From an uncultured Phocaeicola sp. (GTDB taxonomy: Bacteria; Bacteroidota; Bacteroidia; Bacteroidales; Bacteroidaceae): DNA of 64,000 nt. Within the stretch, counting starts at the first letter, position 1, and each line of letters opens with the position of its first letter. A program made the translations under genes and the position numbers. Below the pieces are notes generated by a model that saw only the letters and a list, made by a program, of their open reading frames with translations, was not told the DNA's origin and searched no databases. This document shows positions 5,199-46,369 of the stretch, piece by piece. Location of the stretch: the NCBI GenBank assembly GCA_944320885.1, contig CALUJE010000012.1, forward strand, positions 1 through 64,000, in the 5' to 3' direction.

Positions 5199-5293
5199 AA
5201 AGTTTATCCTTAACCTGAGGATATGTATCTCCAGCCTAAGGATATGTATCCTCAGCTTAAGGATATGTATCCTTAGCCTAAGGATAAACTTTT
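5199..5293. repeat. Phased GGATA/TATCC array, four units
   Basis: In the 369-base gap between two divergent genes, GGATA occurs at 5219, 5240, 5261 and 5282 and TATCC (one copy degenerate, TATCTC) at 5205, 5226, 5247 and 5268, all at exactly 21-base intervals. The array is closed by a perfect 14-base inverted repeat, AAAGTTTATCCTTA and TAAGGATAAACTTT. The same element with three units occurs at 31448. It is not coding, not CRISPR (no unique spacers), and can fold as a series of hairpins. The rest of the gap holds the two promoters and nothing else I can identify. Confidence 0.85.
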
Positions 5294-13415: not shown

Positions 13416-16229
13416 TTAAAGTTTAAAGTTCAGTTCCATTCCGAAATAGGGTTGCACTTCCCTGCGTACGGTTGTTCCGTAACGTGATTTGTACGACGGC
13501 GTATAGTCTAGAATCTTGTTGGCAAAGACCGCCAGCGCTATCTTGTCACGATAGAGCGTCTTGGTTATCTTCAGGTTGACATTCATGCTGAACGGCACCC
13601 GGTTGTAATCGTAGATGGTGCTGTTGTAATTGCGGACAAGGTATGCCAGAACTGCATCGGAGGCCGATTCTTCGGTAAACGGATGCCGTTCGTTGTTCTT
13701 GTCGATATACTCCAGCGGATAGGGATTCTTCCAGTTGCTTTTGCTCCCTGTAAACCACAGGCACTGGAAAGAACTGGAGAAGATGAGGCCCAGACGCGGA
13801 ATCTGCGTATCGGCCGTGAAGTTGGTGTTGAACATCTCACGCACATAACCGTCTTCGTCGGCATAGTATCCGATGTAGGGATACGCCTTGCCGTCGATAA
13901 CCGTTGCGGGTGAATAATACCCGGGAAGGCTGTTGCTGTAAACCGTACGGAACCATGCTCCGGTAACGGTAAACTTGGTGCGTAACGGCTTGATGCGGGG
14001 AGTAGTGAGGGTAAACTCAATACCTTCCTTCCGGGTACGGCTTCCGTTGGTAGTATAAGAGTATGTGGTGAGCAGCGTATCAAGCACATACGGTGTAGTC
14101 TCCAGCGAAGGCGGACCGGTAAGTGTGCTTCCGTCAATGGCCTGCTCGTCATAGTTCTTATAAACCATTGTGACCGGTTGCGAGCCGGAACGGAACCCGT
14201 TCTTCATGTCTTCCTTGAAATAGGTAACGGAAAGGGCACACCCATACCATTCGAGCTGTGTCCGTATTTCCCATTTGAAATTGCGGGCGGCCTTGAGCGA
14301 ATAGTTGGTCGGGTTTATCTTGAACACACGCACGTTGATGCGTCTTTTCGATTCATCGGTAGGCCAGTAGTTCAGCTGGGTGATGTCATAGTAAATCATG
14401 TCGGGATAAAGCTGGTCCATCGTAGGGAATTTGGTGTGCCAGCCCAGTCCGCCGCCGATACCCAGACGCATTTCTTCGCCCAGCAGGCTGAAGCGTGGAA
14501 GGTCAACGTGAAGGTTCATACGGGGGTCGAGGTATACTTTTCCTTCGATGGCATATTCGCTGCCTGTGTTGAACAGACTCTGTGCGCGCACGCCTGCCAT
14601 CCATTCTACTCCGAACCGGCCAAGCTGGAGGCGTGACTCGTTTTCAAGGAACAGTGCTCCCTGATGTTGGGCCGGTATGACGTTGAAAGCGCGCGGACGT
14701 ACGTTCATATCGACGGAGAAGGGATATTCTTCATCAAACAAAGTTCCTTTACCATAATTCTTGTTCATGGACCATTCGGCTCCGGTCTTGAACTTCCACA
14801 CCCGGCGGCTGTCGGGCGAAATCTCGAACGAGGCCGTGCTGCGCGCGAAGGCATAGAACGGCTTTCCGTCGACTTGCAGGGTAGCTTCGTAAGATGACGG
14901 TACGACAGTTACGTCGTGCTCGCCTTCCTGGAGATTGGTCGACAGGGGGACGGTATTGCTCATGGCCACATATTTCCAGCGGTCGATGAGGCTGTTTTCG
15001 GAAGTAACCGAGACCGTAGCGTCCAGTCCGCGGAAGAAAGTCTGTTCTTTGGAGCGCATGCGGAAATTTCCGCTCATGCTGATACGGTTGTAACTCGATT
15101 TGTAGGTCTCTATCGGTCCGTTGGTTCCGTTGTCGAGGTCGCGGTCGGATTTCTGATTGTCGAACGAACCGGTATAGTCGATGCTTCCGCCCAGTGTATA
15201 GTAATAGGCTGAAAAGTCATTCCATTTCTTGTTTATGCGGATGCTTCCGGTAAGGCGGTTGTAACTTTGGCGGGTGTTGCGCGGGTCGGCCTGTGCATCC
15301 AGATAGTTGATGCCCGTATTGAGCGTGAGCGGATTGGCTGCATTCCACTCAAAGGCCTTTCCTACGTAGAACAGCTTGCTGTCCATGTCCGACTTGAAGC
15401 GGGCGTCGAAGGCATTGCCTCCCTGTTTGCGCTTGATTTTTACCAGTCCGCTGGTCAGGTCGCCATACTCTACCGACGGAATGCCGCGTACTACCTCAAC
15501 CGATTCAATGTCGTCGGTAGAGATGGAGCGCATGTCGGCTCCGCTGTTTACGAAGCTGCTGCCATAATTGTTGCTTGTGGGCGTAGACTGCAGGTTGGCA
15601 TCGTTGCTCATGGGAACGCCGTCAATCATGAACTGCGTTCCCAGTGAAGACGTGTTGTAGTTTGAGCCTACCGGAACAGCCTCGCGCAGGCGGATGCTCT
15701 GTGGAGAACTGAAGTTGGGGTCGGACGAACGGCCACCGGGAAGGAGCTCCAGCAGGTCGGCAATGCTCGACGGCTGTATATGGCGGATAGCCTCCTTTCC
15801 GATTTCGGAAGCAGTAGAAAGCGACTTCGATTCGGAAGCGGTGACAATAACCTCTCCTATATTGATAGGATTGTAGTTTACACGGATGTGAAGGCTTGAG
15901 CGTTTTCGGGGATTTATAACTAGATCGGGCAGACGGAAAGTCTGTCCCATATAGAAAACGTGCGCCTGATAAGTTCCTGCCGGAACGTTCTCATGAAAAA
16001 AACATCTCCCGTCTTCATCGGCTGTTGCTGTAAACCTTTGCCCGGCAATACTGTCTGTACGAATCAGGCTGCATACGGCATAAGCCATAGGCTCATTGTT
16101 TTCCTTTTCGGTAATGATGACGGTAAAGGCTGGCAAGTGCGAACCTTTGCTCTGTCCCAGACTTTTATTGCCGGATACGAAAAGAAAAATGAGTGCGGTG
16201 AGTGTCAGTATCTTGTATTTAAAAGTCAT
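13416..16229 (-). CDS. TonB-dependent outer-membrane receptor
   Basis: A 937-residue receptor for energised import across the outer membrane. I place the start at ATG 16229 (MTFKYKILTLTALIFLFVSG). The longer open frame begins with TTG at 16247 inside the promoter's -7 box. After the signal peptide come a carboxypeptidase-like regulatory domain (~30-110), a TonB-box-like stretch EVIVTAS, a plug domain with FMIDGVP and IESVEVVRGIPSVEYGDLT, and a long barrel ending MELNFKL. It has no adjacent SusD, so it is not a classical glycan-utilisation receptor. The plug reads like siderophore or metal receptors. It heads an operon of four envelope genes. An ABC/PepSY operon lies immediately upstream on the same strand. 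Confidence 0.88.
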   Translation of the reverse strand: MTFKYKILTLTALIFLFVSGNKSLGQSKGSHLPAFTVIITEKENNEPMAYAVCSLIRTDSIAGQRFTATADEDGRCFFHENVPAGTYQAHVFYMGQTFRLPDLVINPRKRSSLHIRVNYNPINIGEVIVTASESKSLSTASEIGKEAIRHIQPSSIADLLELLPGGRSSDPNFSSPQSIRLREAVPVGSNYNTSSLGTQFMIDGVPMSNDANLQSTPTSNNYGSSFVNSGADMRSISTDDIESVEVVRGIPSVEYGDLTSGLVKIKRKQGGNAFDARFKSDMDSKLFYVGKAFEWNAANPLTLNTGINYLDAQADPRNTRQSYNRLTGSIRINKKWNDFSAYYYTLGGSIDYTGSFDNQKSDRDLDNGTNGPIETYKSSYNRISMSGNFRMRSKEQTFFRGLDATVSVTSENSLIDRWKYVAMSNTVPLSTNLQEGEHDVTVVPSSYEATLQVDGKPFYAFARSTASFEISPDSRRVWKFKTGAEWSMNKNYGKGTLFDEEYPFSVDMNVRPRAFNVIPAQHQGALFLENESRLQLGRFGVEWMAGVRAQSLFNTGSEYAIEGKVYLDPRMNLHVDLPRFSLLGEEMRLGIGGGLGWHTKFPTMDQLYPDMIYYDITQLNYWPTDESKRRINVRVFKINPTNYSLKAARNFKWEIRTQLEWYGCALSVTYFKEDMKNGFRSGSQPVTMVYKNYDEQAIDGSTLTGPPSLETTPYVLDTLLTTYSYTTNGSRTRKEGIEFTLTTPRIKPLRTKFTVTGAWFRTVYSNSLPGYYSPATVIDGKAYPYIGYYADEDGYVREMFNTNFTADTQIPRLGLIFSSSFQCLWFTGSKSNWKNPYPLEYIDKNNERHPFTEESASDAVLAYLVRNYNSTIYDYNRVPFSMNVNLKITKTLYRDKIALAVFANKILDYTPSYKSRYGTTVRREVQPYFGMELNFKL

Positions 16230-16244
16230 ATTCTTTTTTTGCCG

Positions 16245-16275
16245 CAAAGGTAGGAAGAGCAGGAAGTGCGGTCAA
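16245..16275 (-). promoter_or_regulatory. Promoter of the TonB-receptor operon
   Basis: The minus strand reads TACCTTTG (16252-16245), a full -7 box, and TTG (16275-16273) 20 bases upstream. The likely transcript start is only about 10 bases before ATG 16229, so the leader is very short. Confidence 0.7.
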
Positions 16276-16388: not shown

Positions 16389-16455
16389 AGATTACAAACT
16401 AGTATGAGTGTTTTTTATCAGTCCGTTACAACCGGAGTACGGCTGCTTTGATTTG

Positions 16456-16538
16456 TGCACCGCCGCATGCACAATACTGCACCGCCGTATGCACAACACT
16501 GCATTGCCCGGTGCACAACGCTGCATCGCCCGGTGCAG
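16456..16538. repeat. Phased TGCA array, eight sites
   Basis: TGCA occurs at 16456, 16468, 16478, 16490, 16500, 16512, 16522 and 16534, a strict alternation of 12 and 10 bases. Sequence between sites is GC-rich (CGCCGTA type) after the first and ACAAC type after the second of each pair. The same eight-site geometry recurs at 46044. It is non-coding and starts 28 bases beyond the DUF4857 stop codon. The remainder of this ~330-base gap holds the hairpin, the AGGTAT motifs and the receptor promoter. Confidence 0.85.
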
Positions 16539-16565
16539 AAACCCCGTGCGGCGCTCTTCTGAAAA

Positions 16566-17594
16566 TTATATGCGCGGGCGTACGTACTGGTCGTAAGGCG
16601 AGGTAAAGCTCAGACCGGGAATCTCCGTGTTTTCTGACGGTATCTCGTATTGTTTCAGGAGACTGAAGTCAGAAGCCTTGATACCATAATATACGATATT
16701 CTCGGGCGATGCTATTCTTACAGTCCAGTCGAACATGTTGCCGAATATGGTTATTTCGTCCTGTTCCGGATTATATCCGGGTACACCCGTGAGTGCGATG
16801 CTTCCGTCGGCCATGATTGCATACAGCCTGTGGTTGGTATCGGTGAGAAGTCCCAGCATCTTCCGGTCTCTGAATTCGGTGATGAATACGTGTGCCGGCT
16901 TTATTCCGACGGGAACGGGCAGTGCCTTTACATAAGGCAGTCCTCTGGTTTGTTTCATATGGAAAAGATTTCCGTCAGCATCGATAAGCAGGTATCCGTT
17001 ATCATACTCTTTCATGGTAGTAGGATTGCCTGAAACTTCCTTGGGCGGGAAACGGAATCCTTTGTCAGAAAGCATTTGGGTAAACTTGCGGCTCTTTTCT
17101 TCGTTGACGGTATTTGTCTCCATATTGACAAACTCTATTCCTTTGCGGTTAAAACGGAATGCGTCGTCGGGCATGTCAAGGTCTACGCGGCTTGGCATCG
17201 ATTCAAGCAGGAAATAAATGCCGGTCTGAGGAGTATTGATAGCCGAAGGGCGGGTACGGAAGTTGAAAGAGGTCATCTGTATCTCTTTGGGACTTACCGG
17301 AACCCCCATGATGCTGTCGGGAAAGCGTTCGTCGGCAACGAGCTGACGCATGAAGAAGGCCGGAAGCAGACTGTCTGTCTGTTCGGTAGTATATTGATTG
17401 CCTGCCAGGTCGCGGCGTATGCTTCCTTTGTCTTTATCGTATTCTGTCACGATGAAATCGTCGAGCAAAGAACTGTACATGACAAAGCGGTTGGGCCCGG
17501 CTTTCGTGGTAAGGAAAGCATAGCACCAGGGCAGTTGCCAGACGAGCAGGATGGCAATGGTAAACAGTAATAGTATTTTGCTGAATTGATTCAT
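16566..17594 (-). CDS. DUF4857-like membrane-anchored protein
   Basis: A 342-residue protein with one N-terminal hydrophobic segment (residues ~8-30, uncleaved anchor likely) and a large soluble domain facing the periplasm. The soluble part has repeated beta-strand motifs such as YDNGYLLIDADGNLFHMKQ and HRLYAIMADGSIALTG, reminiscent of a beta-propeller or WD-like blade pattern. I recall this family as DUF4857, found in Bacteroidetes next to ABC-2 permeases and PepSY membrane proteins. It is the last gene of a five-gene operon, 19 bases after the permease. Molecular function unknown. Confidence 0.75.
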   Translation of the reverse strand: MNQFSKILLLFTIAILLVWQLPWCYAFLTTKAGPNRFVMYSSLLDDFIVTEYDKDKGSIRRDLAGNQYTTEQTDSLLPAFFMRQLVADERFPDSIMGVPVSPKEIQMTSFNFRTRPSAINTPQTGIYFLLESMPSRVDLDMPDDAFRFNRKGIEFVNMETNTVNEEKSRKFTQMLSDKGFRFPPKEVSGNPTTMKEYDNGYLLIDADGNLFHMKQTRGLPYVKALPVPVGIKPAHVFITEFRDRKMLGLLTDTNHRLYAIMADGSIALTGVPGYNPEQDEITIFGNMFDWTVRIASPENIVYYGIKASDFSLLKQYEIPSENTEIPGLSFTSPYDQYVRPRI

Positions 17595-31447: not shown

Positions 31448-31524
31448 AAAAAGTTTATCCTCAGCCTAAGGATACATATCCTTAGCCTGAGGATACATGT
31501 CTTTAACCTGAGGATAAACTTTTT
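31448..31524. repeat. Phased GGATA/TATCC array, three units
   Basis: GGATA occurs at 31470, 31491 and 31512 and TATCC at 31456 and 31477 (a degenerate TGTCT at 31498), period 21. The array is bounded by a perfect 17-base inverted repeat: AAAAAGTTTATCCTCAG and CTGAGGATAAACTTTTT. Inner GGATACATATCC is the complement of GGATATGTATCC in the array at 5199, so the two loci lie in opposite orientation. It occupies part of the 631-base gap between rseP and purB. Confidence 0.85.
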
Positions 31525-46043: not shown

Positions 46044-46126
46044 TGCATGGCCGGATGCACTGTTGTGCATAGGGCGGTGCACTGTAGTGCACACGGGGAT
46101 GCACAGTGCTGCACAGGGCTATGCAC
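46044..46126. repeat. Phased TGCA array, eight sites
   Basis: TGCA occurs at 46044, 46056, 46066, 46078, 46088, 46100, 46110 and 46122: the same number of sites and the same 12/10 alternation as the array at 16456, although the bases between differ. It lies 38 bases past the glp terminator, in the 668-base gap before the pilus locus. The remaining ~200 bases up to the poly-G promoter show nothing I can name. Confidence 0.85.
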
Positions 46127-46324: not shown

Positions 46325-46369
46325 TTGTAAAATGCGGGGGGGGGGGGGTAATAATATTTTATATCTTTG
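46325..46369 (+). promoter_or_regulatory. Promoter of the pilus regulator, interrupted by a G tract
   Basis: TATCTTTG (46362-46369) is a full -7 box. The nearest TTG upstream (46325-46327) is 34 bases away; the 13-base G run between them accounts for the whole excess over the usual ~21. Slippage in the run would change promoter spacing. Confidence 0.55.
46336..46348 (+). repeat. Homopolymer tract of 13 G
   Basis: An uninterrupted run of 13 G is far outside the local composition, which is AT-rich. It lies 14 bases upstream of the -7 box of the AraC-type regulator gene, a position suited to phase variation by slipped-strand mispairing. The exact length could vary between cells or be affected by sequencing. 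Confidence 0.85.

Follow-up and report, generated by a model that had tools for sequence, protein, structure and literature searches.

A phased TGCA array in a Bacteroidaceae genome as a candidate dispersed operator for DUF6078 proteins

The window, as we call the whole stretch of 64,000 nucleotides analyzed here, carries an array of eight TGCA sites, which is probably one of the dispersed copies of an operator whose protein, a member of DUF6078 (PF19555), is encoded on another contig of the source assembly, C36; we infer the binding, the function and the copying mechanism from the comparisons set out below. A broader reading, to which we incline with somewhat less assurance, is that DUF6078 constitutes a family of sequence-specific DNA-binding proteins, each member seeding its own 22-bp-period array, and thus a nuclease-free counterpart of REP/RAYT in Bacteroidaceae whose specificity is rapidly diversifying, the window array being one such site. 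This reading offers a testable function for DUF6078 and would give the gut Bacteroidales a new class of dispersed repeat that is linked to a protein, with consequences for genome structure, for gene regulation near insertions and for genome assembly. The more than 80 natural protein-array pairs, with their different half-sites, would also form a ready data set on how a small helix-turn-helix protein changes its DNA specificity.

The initial annotation had described eight TGCA sites at alternating 12- and 10-base steps, and direct reading of array 1 (Table 1) shows this to be exact: the cores begin at 16456, 16468, 16478, 16490, 16500, 16512, 16522 and 16534 (steps of 12, 10, 12, 10, 12, 10 and 12), and the last base is 16537. 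Dinucleotide-preserving shuffles predict 0.01 matches in the window to the three-site pattern TGCA-N8-TGCA-N6-TGCA; the actual count is 12, and every match falls in array 1 or array 2. Rfam and tRNA scans of the window gave no match. Between array 2 and the next gene lies a run of 13 G (46336-46348), a possible phase-variable or sequencing-prone homopolymer.

Table 1. Positions in the window of the two arrays, the copied unit and the neighboring open reading frames (ORFs)
Feature	Position	Strand	Basis or remark
Array 1: eight TGCA cores with N8/N6 spacers, forming eight 11-bp half-sites in alternating orientation	16456..16537	.	read directly; shuffles; half-site profile
Array 2: eight TGCA cores, 12/10 spacing as in array 1, different spacers	46044..46125	.	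pattern search; base-by-base reading
Copied unit: array 1 with 15-16 bp of flank on each side, near-identical to the contig C33 array (L043)	16441..16553	-	
342-aa ORF, neighbor only, end 28 bp from array 1	16566..17594	-	not thought functionally linked to the array
TonB-dependent-receptor-like ORF, neighbor only, 208 bp from array 1, opposite side from the 342-aa ORF	13416..16247	-	identity from translated sequence

Pattern searches of the whole source assembly (2.99 Mb, 57 contigs) return 56 forward and 57 reverse matches to the three-site pattern, compared with 1 and 0 when the pattern is read backwards. The matches group into 17 dispersed arrays, none of which departs from the 12/10 spacing, and their spacers are diverse: 47 of 67 N8 spacers and 35 of 54 N6 spacers are distinct. 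Base-by-base reading of 16 arrays showed eight intact TGCA cores in 11 of them and 7, 7, 9, 10 and 12 in the rest. The two 7-site arrays are eight-site arrays with one mutated core, CGCA standing where the first TGCA would be; counted as such, they share with every other array read, except the 9-site one, an N8 unit at both ends. The search of the genome and its relatives that had been proposed thus yields 17 arrays at home and the same skeleton in other genera, with the spacing fixed and the spacers diverse genome-wide, rather than a variable spacing or identical spacers. A search of an open-access library found no earlier description of such arrays in Bacteroides.

When each TGCA is oriented with its N6 side to the right, the 137 half-sites of the source assembly define an 11-bp profile, [G/C][C/g]G[A/G]TGCA[C/g][A/T][A/g], in which the positions outside TGCA carry 0.45-1.03 bits. 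The core occupies positions 5-8, half a base off center, and adjacent half-sites are inverted; the alternation of 12 and 10 follows from this offset and inversion. In TGCCA-type arrays, the 5-bp core is centered and both spacers are 6 bp. The profile is symmetric and genome-specific, the same TGCA skeleton being flanked as TGCAARR in the CALUOU genome and as TGCACTA in CAMTOS. The earlier observation that the spacers drift is therefore right insofar as they vary, but they are degenerate rather than free, because they carry this weaker, genome-specific half-site motif in alternating orientation. Pairing of spacers into a long hairpin or cruciform was ruled out by inspection, as the spacers within an array are not complementary.

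Selection on the geometry, proposed at the outset, gains support from three sides: (i) the 12/10 spacing is invariant in the 17 arrays despite 47 N8 and 35 N6 spacer variants; (ii) in an orthologous array of two related species (G006 and G014), situated directly behind the stop codon of one gene (polygalacturonase-like) and upstream of another (glutamine-synthetase-like), the cores agree at 32/32 positions and the spacers at 23/50 (Fisher p 3e-8), the core agreement being partly ascertained, since both arrays were found via the exact pattern; and (iii) in seven genomes, the TGCA skeleton goes with a single clade of a protein predicted to bind DNA. Two perfect arrays at 46% spacer identity would not survive by chance. 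At the glutamine-synthetase locus, the TGCA array is absent from G012, G002 and G011, and a clean excision footprint was not seen; G003, G008 and G009 have orthologues of the 342-aa gene with no array beside them, and the divergence of these gaps is too great for an empty site to be delimited.

The candidate partner is a Cys-rich protein of about 150 aa that adjoins arrays in the source assembly (L044 on C36, where the gene lies 12 bp upstream of a TGCA array copy) and in G012 (L062). In tblastn searches it stands beside a TGCA array in seven genomes (L044, L062, L083, L092, L134, L148 and L157), with the array always 3'. Pfam assigns it to DUF6078 with 144.9 bits (L044) and 142.4 bits (L062) at a curated cut-off of 27, and no other Pfam family matches. 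DUF6078 occurs in 170 of 399 Bacteroidaceae genomes, at one to nine copies each, and genes of the family chosen regardless of arrays are also followed by tandem arrays, of other sequence: in 17 of the first 30 loci the best lag was 22, above threshold and on the 3' side, compared with 0/177 control stretches. Among 112 distinct DUF6078 genes, 83 have a lag-22 array at most 420 bp away, a fraction slightly above the unbiased one because the seven TGCA genes were picked for their arrays; 75 have it at the 3' side and 9 at the 5' side, the median distance to the stop codon is 47 bp, and no such array appears in 118 shuffled or 177 random stretches. With lags of 21-23 counted, 93/112 genes have an array and 19/112 have none nearby. 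The second copy in the source assembly (L261, contig C16) is one of these 19; upstream of it, at about 1140-1340 of the locus, a unit of ~105-110 bp is repeated in tandem. The linked arrays consist of alternating inverted half-sites, for example TGCCA-N6-TGGCA, CTTTA..TAAAG and CAGTTTA..TAAACT. DUF6078 was not found in phages, and plasmids gave one weak partial match, in Bacteroides finegoldii; PADLOC, NCBIfam and PHROGs yielded no convincing match, PDB sequences none, and the open-access library no paper on the family.

The sequence of the array follows the clade of the protein. Within the 112 proteins, the seven linked to TGCA arrays group in a single clade that contains no others (support 0.988), and array similarity climbs with protein identity: its mean is 0.31 where identity is below 30% and 0.78 where identity exceeds 80% (Mantel rho 0.26, 0/1000 permutations). 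Among the residues that mark out the TGCA clade are a Tyr and a Leu within the third helix predicted for the C-terminal domain, together with a Val and a Cys at its start. Dispersal tracks the resident DUF6078 in several genomes: matches to the TGCCA array number 25 in G313, 20 in G351 and 12 in G343, each of which has a TGCCA-linked DUF6078, and none in the source assembly. Against the pairing, the most TGCA-rich genomes, G423 and G424, contain only one DUF6078 each, both of clades other than TGCA, and no TGCA-clade protein was found in G006, G014 and G010, though a TGCA array is present. These five genomes are mostly drafts; in them, the matching protein may have been lost, missed by the drafts or replaced by another protein. 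The only DUF6078 found in G424 (CAMTOS) is TGCCA-linked. Arrays of this genome (for example, L061, L070, L073 and L090) mix TGCA with TGCC(A)-like cores and contain short indels, a pattern that would suit a recognition sequence in transition to a different one.

In AlphaFold2 models of two members (pLDDT 89.7 and 90.3), the N-terminal part of DUF6078 contains four cysteines, invariant in the alignment, and the C-terminal domain is helical; Cys, Pro, Ala, Gly and Gln, and no histidine, make up the invariant columns. The best structural matches of the C-terminal domain, PrgX, C.Kpn2I, YdaS, ClgR, lambda cI and an E. coli lambda-repressor-like protein, are modest (Z 4.8-5.8), lower than a clearly outstanding score would be, and point to a predicted lambda-repressor-like (HTH_XRE) fold; Foldseek returned nothing significant for the models. 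Dimers of lambda-repressor-like proteins contact inverted half-sites through consecutive major grooves, a helical turn apart along the same face of the DNA, and neighboring dimers on their operators are cooperative. The fold, if right, thus fits the alternating inverted site. We posit that each DUF6078 monomer would use its C-terminal helix-turn-helix to read one half-site, consecutive monomers occupying consecutive major grooves; an array would then carry about four dimers in a row along one face, and their binding may be cooperative. The arrays resemble lambda-repressor-like operators in the inversion of neighboring half-sites and in placing them about a helical turn apart along one face; in contrast to those operators, a TGCA array comprises eight contiguous half-sites in dozens of dispersed copies, and the DUF6078 site sequence diversifies among paralogues. 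The CopG operator also has TGCA half-sites; a CopG-like protein was rejected as a candidate, as the models do not look like ribbon-helix-helix proteins and searching the literature turned up nothing helpful.

The arrays have spread by copying as well. Nine array pairs in the source assembly share an identical stretch of at least 24 bp (the longest 47 bp), compared with 0-1 in independent draws from the half-site profile, and array 1 nearly matches the C33 array over ~113 bp, after which similarity stops abruptly on both sides; judged by its sequence, array 1 is a recent copy. The long shared stretches and the match with C33 indicate that the element copies itself or is copied. Recent duplication, which the initial annotation had set against selection on geometry, is therefore real but leaves that selection supported. 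The discrete ends of this recent copy, together with the conserved left and right motifs that flank the arrays of the CALUOU genome and the many copies in genomes that lack a matching DUF6078, would suit a pure mobile minisatellite, MITE-like and moved by an unrelated transposase, to which DUF6078 genes are merely frequent neighbors or passengers. We consider this unlikely: such an element would leave unexplained why array sequence tracks the DUF6078 clade, why the half-sites are symmetric and helically phased and why the cores outlast the spacers, and neither a target-site duplication, sought by eye at the array copies, nor a transposase was seen. A known element of the same bacterial order, the BrickBuilt MITE of Porphyromonas gingivalis, is likewise an intergenic minisatellite with units of 22-23 bp, ~19 copies per genome and flanking ends; its repeat, however, is direct and 23 nt long (AGAYCATARTATCCTCTCRTRTG), its inverted ends are IS5-like, it has no alternating half-sites, and the available portion of its description reports no linked protein gene (PMC4596501). 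We reject identity with BrickBuilt, since the TGCA arrays have a 22-bp period, alternating inverted half-sites and a different consensus.

A copied operator paired with its own DUF6078 protein invites comparison with REP/RAYT, in which repeat and protein co-vary and the resident protein goes with the abundance of its cognate repeat (PMC2817692). Like REP/BIME and RAYT, the present system has short palindromic intergenic repeats in alternating orientation and a gene beside its own repeat, and DUF6078 and its cognate array co-vary, with cognate copies dispersed. Unlike RAYT, DUF6078 has neither the conserved histidines nor an HUH (Y1) transposase domain, its array usually lies on one side of the gene instead of being inverted on both, and the array has strict 11-bp half-site phasing and no GTAG/CGTC tag. 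Because the HUH transposase and the repeats on both sides are missing, we do not class the DUF6078 arrays as REP/RAYT. The pair may nevertheless behave as a selfish or domesticated repeat system of the REP/RAYT type, in which the resident DUF6078 of a genome would set which arrays accumulate between genes; local nucleoprotein structure or regulation would be the most likely effect of bound arrays.

Regulation could also be the whole purpose, with DUF6078 an ordinary transcription regulator acting at arrays that control adjacent promoters. A predicted helix-turn-helix, four cysteines that could form a metal or redox site and the intergenic position of the arrays are what one would expect of such a protein, but where the arrays lie makes it improbable. 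By a simple ORF heuristic, which also calls some short and probably spurious ORFs that overlap a few of the arrays, they occur in tandem, divergent and convergent gaps alike, an indifference to gene orientation that argues against promoter-operator placement; they lie mostly 3' of the DUF6078 gene, unlike promoter operators; and their number ranges from 0 to dozens between related species. A minisatellite born of chance or slippage without selection, as might be read from the 22-bp repeat that Tandem Repeats Finder calls at array 1 and from some units common to several arrays, is scarcely credible in the face of 17 dispersed arrays with identical spacing and diverse spacers and of the same skeleton in other genera.

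Two further repeats were noted. A second family of dispersed intergenic arrays has a 21-bp period (unit TATCCTNAGNCTNAGGATA-NN, usually 3-4 units, bounded by AAGTT..AACTT) and is found in the window at 5205-5286 and 31456-31516 and elsewhere in the source assembly on C1, C10, C29 and C34 (L231, L232, L235 and L236); no partner gene was found beside these arrays. In G002 (L216), the gap upstream of the glutamine-synthetase-like gene holds, in place of the TGCA array of G006 and G014, a longer inverted repeat of the AAGGTGGGTTCTATAAATT .. AATTTATAGAACCCACCTT type, perhaps another MITE-like insertion.
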